This document shows positions 35,706 to 58,399 of a stretch of 64,000 bases of DNA, piece after piece. The notes under the pieces were generated by a model. It was not told where the DNA came from. It made no database searches and saw only the letters and a program-made list of their open reading frames with translations. Origin of the DNA: Halobacterium sp. DL1. GTDB lineage: Archaea; Halobacteriota; Halobacteria; Halobacteriales; Halobacteriaceae. The position numbers and the translations under genes are program-made. How positions within the stretch are numbered: the first letter of the stretch is position 1; every line of letters starts with the position of its first letter. The stretch covers positions 2,424,216 to 2,488,215 of the forward strand of contig CP007060.1 in the NCBI GenBank assembly GCA_000230955.3. The letters run 5' to 3'.

Positions 35706-35810
35706 GAAAGCCCCGAGGCTGTGAACTCGGGGGACTCGCTGCGCTCCTCAGTCACTTCGTTCCCTGCGGTGCTTGCGTCATCCGCCTTCGTTCACAGCCT
35801 CGCCCCTTTC
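35706..35810 (-). repeat. long hairpin element, GAAAGGGGC...GGGGCTTTC family, copy 2a
   Basis: Read on the minus strand: GAAAGGGGC (35810-35802), stem GAGGCTGTGAAC (35801-35790), a 63-base loop, stem GTTCACAGCCTC (35726-35715), GGGGCTTTC (35714-35706). The two stem arms are perfectly complementary over 12 bases. The loop carries GACGCAAGCACCGCA and GAGGAGCGCAGCGAGTCCC, which recur in the copy at 57504. It lies head to head with copy 2b, separated by 42 bases containing ATTGACCAGCCGG. No protein-coding frame is supported here. Confidence 0.8.
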
Positions 35811-35852
35811 GGTCCGCCCGTCGCCTATTGACCAGCCGGTCACGGGTGGACT

Positions 35853-35952
35853 GAAAGGGGCTGGTAGCTGGACCCGGCCCCGACGACGCAAGCACTCGAC
35901 CGTAGGGAGAGCGCGCAGCGAGTCGCGGACGGTCCAGCTACCAGGGGCTTTC
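35853..35952 (+). repeat. long hairpin element, GAAAGGGGC...GGGGCTTTC family, copy 2b
   Basis: GAAAGGGGC (35853-35861), stem TGGTAGCTGGAC (35862-35873), a 58-base loop, stem GTCCAGCTACCA (35932-35943), GGGGCTTTC (35944-35952). The stem is a perfect 12 bp but unrelated in sequence to that of copy 2a. The loop keeps GACGACGCAAGCAC and GCGCAGCGAGTC. Together with copy 2a it fills the intergenic region between the small gene at 35441 and the NUDIX gene at 36005. The remaining bases of that region (35627-35705, 35953-36004) show nothing else recognisable. Confidence 0.8.
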
Positions 35953-56935: not shown

Positions 56936-57403
56936 CTACGGCAGGTAACGCACGCTGAGGAAGTCCTCGCCGGAGCGGATTTCGACGCGCTCGATGCCGA
57001 TTCTCGCGGCCCGGGCGACCGTCTGGTCGTCGATTCGGACGTCCTCGACGGCCTCTTCCACCGAGTCAGTTGGCACCGAGAGTACGTGGACCTCGCCGAC
57101 GCCCGCGCGCTCCGTGGTCGTGAGTTCGCCCTCGCCGAGGTCGGCGGCCATCGTCTCGACCTGGCGCGTGGGCGCCTCCTCGCTCACCTCGACGGGGATG
57201 CGCTTGCGCTCTTCGACGTCAACGACGCTGTACGTGACGCCCATCGGGGGGTCTGGTGCGACGGTCGCCGTCAGCACCTCGCCGGCCTCGACGCCCGGGT
57301 TCTCCGAGAGCGTGTGCACCTGCGCGTCCGACACGTCGGAGAGAATCGCGGAGTCGTCGTCGGCTTCCGCGACGAAGAACGTCGCTGTCTTCTCGTCGGT
57401 CAT
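56936..57403 (-). CDS. conserved haloarchaeal protein (DUF5812-like), unknown
   Basis: A 155-residue soluble acidic protein with an N-terminal beta-rich TATFFVAEADDDSAILSDVSDAQVHTLSENPGVEAGEVLTAT (OB-like pattern), a linker, and a second part (GVGEVHVLSVPTDSVEEAVEDV, RAARIGIERVEIRSGEDFLSVRYLP). It resembles DUF5812 from memory. The ATG at 57403 starts the conserved part. It converges with the gene at 56587 and is followed upstream by the large hairpin composite. Confidence 0.68.
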   Translation of the reverse strand: MTDEKTATFFVAEADDDSAILSDVSDAQVHTLSENPGVEAGEVLTATVAPDPPMGVTYSVVDVEERKRIPVEVSEEAPTRQVETMAADLGEGELTTTERAGVGEVHVLSVPTDSVEEAVEDVRIDDQTVARAARIGIERVEIRSGEDFLSVRYLP

Positions 57404-57503
57404 TGTGGCTCGGTTGGCGGCCTCGCTGTTTCCCTGTTTCGACGTAAGATTGTGATACTGTGTCATACGCGGGAAGAACTGAACTCAGCATCAACGTCGT
57501 CCA

Positions 57504-57600
57504 GAACGCCCCGGCCATCTCGACTCCCGGGACTCGCTGTGCTCCTCACTACGTTGCGGTGCTTGCATCGTCCGGGTTCGTCGAGATGGCCGGGGCGTTC
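57504..57600 (-). repeat. long hairpin element, GAAC/GGGGCGTTC variant, copy 3a
   Basis: Read on the minus strand: GAACGCCCC (57600-57592), stem GGCCATCTCGAC (57591-57580), a 55-base loop, stem GTCGAGATGGCC (57524-57513), GGGGCGTTC (57512-57504). Unlike the other copies the outer 9-mers are themselves fully complementary, extending the stem to 21 bp. The loop matches that of copy 2a closely (GCAAGCACCGCA, then GAGGAGC and CAGCGAGTCCC). It lies head to head with copy 3b around ATTGACCAGCCGG (57618-57630). Confidence 0.8.
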
Positions 57601-57644
57601 AGTCCCACCTCTTGCCAATTGACCAGCCGGAATCGGGCAGGGTT

Positions 57645-57807
57645 GAAAGGGGCGGTCGGCTACGGGAAGCCCGGCGAAGCAAGCAACGCAGACCGAAGGT
57701 CGAGGAGCGTGGTTCGAGAGAGCTAGGCTCTCTCGTCATCACGAAAGACGGCTGCGCCGTCTTTCGAACGACAGCGAGCCGCGCGACCGTAGCCGGCCGG
57801 GGCTTTC
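57645..57807 (+). repeat. long hairpin element, GAAAGGGGC...GGGGCTTTC family, copy 3b
   Basis: GAAAGGGGC (57645-57653), stem GGTCGGCTACGG (57654-57665), a 121-base loop, stem CCGTAGCCGGCC (57787-57798, 11 pairs plus one T-G), GGGGCTTTC (57799-57807). The loop starts like the other copies (GGCGAAGCAAGCA, GAGGAGC) and ends CAGCGAG. Between these it has an extra segment with two nested hairpins, AGAGAGCTAGGCTCTCT and GAAAGACGGC-TGC-GCCGTCTTTC. The region 57404-57853 otherwise contains no gene. Confidence 0.8.
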
Positions 57808-57853
57808 GAGGTAGTAGTCTCACTACCTCTCGCGGACACAGAGTCCCCGAATC

Positions 57854-58399
57854 TCACTGCGAGCCATAGCGGCGGTGGACGGCGTAGACGACCAGCGCGC
57901 CGACGAGCGGCACCACCGGGGAGGCCAGGCCCGGAATCGCGTAGAGGAACTCGACGACTGGCGCGAACAGCCCCGTGGGCTCCGGTCGCGCCACCAGTTC
58001 GCCGTTCGTCCGGAACTGCGGGGGCATCGACGCGACCACGCCGAAGTAGACCGAGAGGACGAACGCGTAGCCCGCGGCCCCGAGCGCGGCGTCGTACCGC
58101 GGCGCGACCGGCGTCTCGCGGCGGTGGCGCCGGGCGACCAGCAGGACGGGGCCGACCAGCGGCGCGAACACGAACAGGCCGACGACCACGTAGAACGTCC
58201 GAGAGAGCGTCAGCGACCCGCCGCGGGCGCCCGCCGTGTTGCCGACGAGCACGACCAGCGCGCCAGCCATCAGGAACGCGAAGAGGGCGCCGAGCAGACC
58301 GCTCACGACGACGTAGCTCCGGAACAGCCGGGAGTCCGACTGGCGGAACGCGTACGGGTACGCCGTGAGCAGGCCGGAGTAGCTGTCGAAGCGCCCCAT
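57854..58399 (-). CDS. membrane protein, unknown
   Basis: A 181-residue protein with about four membrane helices (approximately 28-52, 68-88, 104-124 and 155-174). The N-terminus MGRFDSYSGLLTAYPYAFRQSDSRLFRSYVVVS and the loop VARRHRRETPVAPRYDAALG are soluble. The start at 58399 is divergent from pgi with 69 bases between. No family is recognised, and no enzyme motif is seen. Confidence 0.65.
   Translation of the reverse strand: MGRFDSYSGLLTAYPYAFRQSDSRLFRSYVVVSGLLGALFAFLMAGALVVLVGNTAGARGGSLTLSRTFYVVVGLFVFAPLVGPVLLVARRHRRETPVAPRYDAALGAAGYAFVLSVYFGVVASMPPQFRTNGELVARPEPTGLFAPVVEFLYAIPGLASPVVPLVGALVVYAVHRRYGSQ

Follow-up and report, generated by a model that had tools for sequence, protein, structure and literature searches.

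A putative non-autonomous mobile element with a cloverleaf core, dispersed through haloarchaeal intergenic gaps

Anatomy of the locus

The window, a 64,000-nucleotide stretch of the 3.16 Mb genome of the haloarchaeon Halobacterium sp. DL1 (G000), carries copies 2 and 3 of a composite repeat, of which copy 3 is referred to here as the window copy. Their features are given below.

57444–57859, no strand assigned: entire insertion of about 416 bp; its borders come from comparison with the empty site, the right one being exact to ±3 bp
57444–57503, plus strand: left arm with the weak terminal inverted repeat AGATT..G..ACT.TGTGTC..CGCG; missing at empty sites
57504–57600, plus strand: hairpin A (3a in the original prediction) with boxes GAACGCCCC/GGGGCGTTC, 12-bp stem and conserved loop; match to covariance model R1, E 4.5e-21
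57592–57653, plus strand: central hairpin region with boxes GGGGCGTTCAGTCCCACC ... GGTTGAAAGGGGC; pairing partly lost in the window copy
57618–57630, plus strand: 13-mer ATTGACCAGCCGG, tip of the central hairpin
57645–57807, minus strand: hairpin B (3b in the original prediction) with standard boxes GAAAGGGGC/GGGGCTTTC; R1 match at 57625–57807, minus strand, E 7e-14
57712–57769, no strand assigned: unrelated twin-hairpin repeat of about 58 bp, lying inside the hairpin B loop
57808–57859, minus strand: right arm, which provides the stop codon of the shortened neighbour gene
35706–35952, no strand assigned: copy 2, complete cloverleaf core (A 35706–35810, central 35802–35861, B 35853–35952)

The original prediction described two facing hairpins at 57504–57807, whose coordinates and letters both check out and which belong to a large dispersed family. 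Hairpin A has a perfect stem of 21 bp, in which 57504–57524 pairs with 57580–57600, and the single T-G pair that had been predicted for hairpin B (57645–57807) is present at 57656/57796. When reverse-complemented, the right arm resembles the left arm (57444–57503), and the 415-nt window element folds 7 SD better than its dinucleotide shuffles (z = −7). The insertion shortened the neighbouring gene, whose end reads HRRYGSQ-stop in place of HRRYGSKHGNGERA-stop. A gene at 56939–57403 is DUF5812, with orthologs in 13 of 13 congeners. The repeat nested in hairpin B (window 57712–57769) belongs to a second repeat family, a twin hairpin of about 58 bp of the form GTTCGA..TCTCTCGTCATCACGAAAG..TCGAAC, which is nested in the hairpin loops of three composites (window, L056 and L047) and stands solitary at L049 and L051.

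A four-way cloverleaf as the conserved core

The correct fold of the core is a four-way cloverleaf, not two independent hairpins. Four arms meet in it: GAAAGCCCC pairs with GGGGCTTTC in the outer stem, CCCCTTTCAGTCC with GGACTGAAAGGGG in the central hairpin, and hairpins A and B lie on either side of the latter. The copies of the G000 genome were read locus by locus, and the common plan, as seen in about 25 copies read, runs GAAAGCCCC – stem A (12 bp) – loop – A' – GCCCCTTTCAGTCCCACCC – CTACCGGCTGG/CCAACCGGTAG – GGGTGGGACTGAAAGGGGC – B – loop – B' – GGGGCTTTC. The fold of copy 2 beats dinucleotide shuffles by 9 SD (z = −9.2), and the lowest-energy folds of copy 2 and of the copy at L058 form a four-way junction with zero unpaired bases at its centre. 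About 250 of 272 hairpins keep the boxes GAAAGCCCC/GCCCCTTTC, whose middle three bases are unpaired within the hairpin, and since all four boxes pair in the cloverleaf, we take the cloverleaf to be the maintained form.

This bears on the outer 9-mers of hairpin A, whose joint change had been read as a paired compensation, a view at odds with the mid-unpaired boxes kept by nearly all hairpins. 'Corrected' boxes with 9/9 pairing occur in only about 5–6 of the 272, and hairpins of this type are also seen at L052, L061, L149 and L272. As GAACGCCCC and GGGGCGTTC are now perfect complements, their pairing with the other boxes is broken, and the change resembles one arm copied onto the other, presumably by template switching, and not a functional compensation. 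The 13-mer ATTGACCAGCCGG is indeed exact at both window loci (57618–57630 and 35827–35839), with no third exact copy in the window; its proposed role as a special core did not hold up, as it forms the apex of the central hairpin, is found three times in the whole genome and is replaced in other copies by variants such as TTGGTCAGCCGG or CTGGCCAACCGG.

Stem pairing is kept while stem sequence changes. Among 23 halves of G000, 95.3% of cells pair compared to 72.2% after shuffling, and the stem covariation score is 0.554 against 0.134, with 19 of 28 pairs changing on both sides, in shuffles that leave relatedness between copies uncontrolled; sliding the partner strand abolishes the stem covariation. 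Watson-Crick pairs fill 92% of cells in the set of 269 distinct stems, while G-T makes up 1.1% and A-C 3.3% of cells when read in the GAAAGCCCC orientation. This asymmetry hints at selection on the opposite-strand RNA and becomes weak without the two innermost pairs (p = 0.006).

Distribution and insertion history

Covariance model R1 was applied to G000, 13 congeners and 242 genomes of the class, with a threshold of E ≤ 0.01 for the halves in G000. It returned 42 half-units in G000 at this threshold, matches in 12 of the 13 congeners, and matches in 204 of the 242 class genomes, representing 64 of 74 genera. BLAST with the window locus gave 33 matches in G000, and the central-hairpin pattern was found in at least 120 stretches of named haloarchaeal genomes. 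This pattern was absent from IMG/VR viral contigs, and a search of annotated phages for the element gave zero matches; with both searches empty, no viral link is drawn. Haloarchaeal plasmids contributed 11 weak matches, almost all of them unannotated. Between genera the outer ends vary and the core is conserved, which is the reverse of an ordinary MITE.

The original prediction had proposed a search for empty sites and borders, and comparison with relatives supplied both (borders 57444–57859). Alignment to the empty site of G012 (L258) and of nine other congeners places the junction at window 57443 to about 57872, and the gap upstream of the DUF5812 gene is empty in the ten congeners read, the closest relative G012 included and G006 left out. 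G012 is collinear with the window at a four-fold-site identity of 81%. Copy 2 is likewise a lineage-specific insertion, its site being filled only in G000 and G012 and empty in the ten other congeners read (G008 left out). In the more distant species G009, a half-element with a similar left end (L247) lies at the exact junction of window 57443, 43 bp upstream of a start codon, and the sister species is empty at that site; L247 would reflect either a preferred target, a shared old insertion or a transfer.

Losses are visible as well. L012 in G000 holds the left half only, while the same site in the sister species G012 (L260) holds a full composite; L012 is a deletion remnant of the composite retained in G012. 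Moreover, the outer flanks on the two sides of a given composite covary at positions −1, −2 and −4 (0 of 300 shuffles as high), which makes the composite one unit. The idea of one unit copied or maintained as a pair is therefore upheld by class-wide composites, flank covariation, empty sites and the L012/L260 comparison. Another deletion remnant of the element was seen at L234 (G243:C7:1459893), where GGTAGTGTTTAGATAAG...GAAAGCCCC is joined to the other end with TGTGACAGC on both sides.

IS6-type ends and target duplications in relatives

Near-identical composites occur at unrelated loci of G243 within an element that measures about 380 bp, has the termini GGTACTGTTTAGATTAGC / AGTAGTGTTTAGATAAGC and is accompanied by the 8-bp target duplications TCAGCGAC at L232 and CGGTTCGA at L216; an exact 8-bp target duplication is also found at L310. 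The ends of the G243 element match those of IS6-family transposase genes (PF13610) of the same or related genomes. In relatives, intact IS6 transposases accompany the core. A half-core in three congener elements (L298, L299 and L310) is framed by GGCAGTGTTCAGATAAGC and GGCGGTGTTCAGATAAGGAT, which reproduce both differing ends of the complete IS6 elements (PF13610) of the window's genus, which end in GGTAGTGTTCAGATAAGCTG and GGCGGTGTTCAGATAAGGAT and show 8-bp duplications. IS6-like tips (GG...TGTTYAGA) were found at a fixed distance in 36 of 326 outer flanks compared to 1 in the reversed control, the window copies not being among them. IS6 mobilisation is thereby supported in relatives. A single core in G243 (L213–L216, L232) is bordered by either of two outer arms, TTTAGATAAGCCTGTG and TTTAGATTAGCGTACT, which are combined in several ways, a pattern that points to recombination among copies.

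At the borders of the window copy itself we observed weak inverted ends and a possible target duplication of only 3–4 bp, CGA[CG], with no recognisable IS6 end and no 8-bp target duplication. IS6 transposase was detected in G005, G008, G236 and G243, and PF13610 was undetected in G000, G003, G004 and G012, although G000, G004 and G012 hold 34–42 copies. Because the transposase is undetected in G000, we do not file the window copy as an IS6 MITE; it may have been mobilised by IS6 or by another mover in its place. Target duplications and a transposase acting in trans, a link raised in the original prediction, were found in relatives and not for the window copy in G000.

Genomic context

None of 98 classified composites lies inside a gene as called by our own simple gene caller. 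The genes around them are arranged in tandem in 55 cases, divergently in 33 and convergently in 10, no different from background gaps (Fisher p = 0.2 and 0.5), and a terminator or promoter role deduced from gene orientation was rejected, orientation being unbiased. The distance from the composite edge peaks at 80–110 bp to the start codon and at 40–80 bp to the gene end, which fits a picture in which copies survive only away from core promoters. Targeted insertion was also considered for the 80–110 bp peak and dismissed, as arms of 40–60 bp, compact gaps and core-promoter selection suffice; with the peak otherwise explained, we make no targeting claim. The left flank of L115 in Haloarcula rara contains three identical 45-bp units GTGAGCGATTGCTGCATAGTAGACCGCAAACAGCCAGAAAGCCCC in head-to-tail order upstream of the composite at about 1683, and scars ACAGCCAGAAAGCCCCGCTAGCA lie close to other Haloarcula copies.

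Turnover of the hairpins

When 43 hairpins at orthologous sites were compared between species, the best match lay at another locus for 31, in the ortholog for 10 and on the ortholog's opposite side for 2, counts that ignore phylogeny and include around five hairpins whose calls are weak or spurious. Between L308 and L313, hairpin A is 97% identical and hairpin B 68%, and stems such as GGCTGGCTTCGG, GAGGCTGTRGAC and GGGCCGCTCGGT recur at different loci of different species. We infer that hairpins are swapped between copies as blocks, besides point changes, and in-situ flipping of composites is possible. A further-reaching proposal, which we hold only tentatively and regard as somewhat doubtful, is that whole hairpin cassettes between fixed boxes would be swapped or flipped among loci throughout the class, that DNA-level copying and not base-by-base selection would keep the stems complementary, and that the perfect four-way junction would be the functional form, in protein binding or recombination, whichever transposase moves the element.

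A separate observation concerns L263 (1900–2340): relative to L057, the loop of one hairpin is turned around inside its arms, with the boxes in the same orientation.

Interpretation

The locus is very probably a non-autonomous mobile element (MITE) in whose core four boxes and two hairpin cassettes form one cloverleaf unit: it is dispersed, multicopy, shorter than about 600 bp (about 416 bp), lacks a transposase gene and has filled as well as empty sites. The element, having no gene of its own, would be moved by transposases of other elements acting on its ends, which in several genera are of the IS6 type, and it survives for the most part in short gaps between genes, away from the core promoter. 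The window copy was presumably moved by a transposase that is different or has since been lost. Complementary stems may last through whole-hairpin exchange or template-switch correction, together with selection for the folded four-way junction.

A conserved internal loop with strong covariation, and the many copies that directly follow stop codons, could also be expected of a structured RNA, be it a 3'-UTR or a bidirectional terminator or insulator, whose transcript is selected and whose mobility is incidental. On the strand GGACTGAAAGGGGC...GGGGCTTTC, wobble-compatible pairs outnumber A-C mismatches by 107 to 35, and by 55 to 29 without stem pairs 11–12 (p = 0.006); even on this strand, however, wobble pairs make up just 3% of cells. 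Both orientations are present in every composite, so that no single transcript is favoured, the surrounding gene arrangement equals background, and an Rfam search of the locus returned no family match. We consider an RNA function unlikely to be what maintains the core. The head-to-head pairs might also be independent REP-like hairpins, two insertions having landed together, as single halves exist in both orientations and some have IS6 ends of their own (L298, L299, L310). The covarying outer ends of one composite, the central boxes that pair perfectly across both halves in the fold, and the remnant L012 with its intact counterpart in G012 all speak against this origin, to which we give very little credence.

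Several alignments would fit an invertible switch (inverton), in which recombination of the outer inverted repeats flips the composite and regulates its neighbours. Copy 2 aligns better with its ortholog when inverted (score 125 vs 77.5), as do L042/L264 (131 vs 84.5) and L314 with L303/L309 (97.5/94.5 vs 64.5/70.5), and the L057/L263 pair shows its one reversed loop. A single pair gave the clear impression that copy 2 had inverted in situ; this was abandoned, because paralogs score as high, reaching similar best-orientation scores of up to 191.5 within G000; inversion accordingly stays a rival only. Replacement by another copy accounts equally for most cases, the neighbourhoods of the copies read showed no invertase gene, and the element is nearly symmetric, so a flip alters little. 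A regulatory switch is quite improbable.

Relation to known elements and significance

Two IS6 MITEs, 227 and 336 bp long, are recorded in a review of the IS6 family (PMC7986276). Haloarchaeal IS6-family MITEs resemble the present element in size, lack of genes, the GG-tip TGTT ends of full IS6 elements and, in relatives, 8-bp duplications. In contrast, the cloverleaf core conserved here is not seen in IS6 elements and is also present in copies without IS6 ends, such as the window copy and Haloarcula copies, and its stems diverge between copies yet stay paired, a comparison in which the 227- and 336-bp MITEs are known by description and not by their letters. REPIN/BIME elements, in which REP hairpins paired in inverted order are mobilised by RAYT (Y1) transposases, likewise have two imperfect inverted hairpins as the mobile unit. 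They differ in hairpin size (20–40 bp, compared to about 95–180 nt here) and in their GTAG/CGTC tag, which is missing here, where nearly all hairpins have the base GAAAG/CTTTC; the ends and duplications in relatives indicate a DDE transposase. Bacterial MITEs of the Correia/ERIC/BOX type are similarly intergenic, structured and dispersed, but retain their stem sequence, whereas here it turns over and complementarity stays. Transposase-free small mobile repeats are known from Haloquadratum walsbyi as SMR and PATE (PMC3119063). SMRs have inverted ends without target duplication, which the window copy may share, while SMR-A is about 110 bp long and highly uniform, and PATEs are IS605-derived and without inverted ends (PMC3119063). 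The element is undescribed in the literature searched, with ISfinder and subscription journals outside that search. Mobile elements of this kind are already known; judged by the literature that could be searched, the variant with its unusual conserved cloverleaf core is new.

The family offers a countable case of long hairpins that change their sequence at orthologous sites with pairing kept, and allows selection, template-switch correction and between-copy exchange to be tested against one another as the cause. It is a widespread unannotated intergenic feature of haloarchaea that adjoins promoters, truncates genes, as in the window, and confounds intergenic annotation. MC1 and Hjc are binders of four-way junctions known from archaea (PMC6776556), and the conserved perfect four-way junction makes an inviting test case for both.
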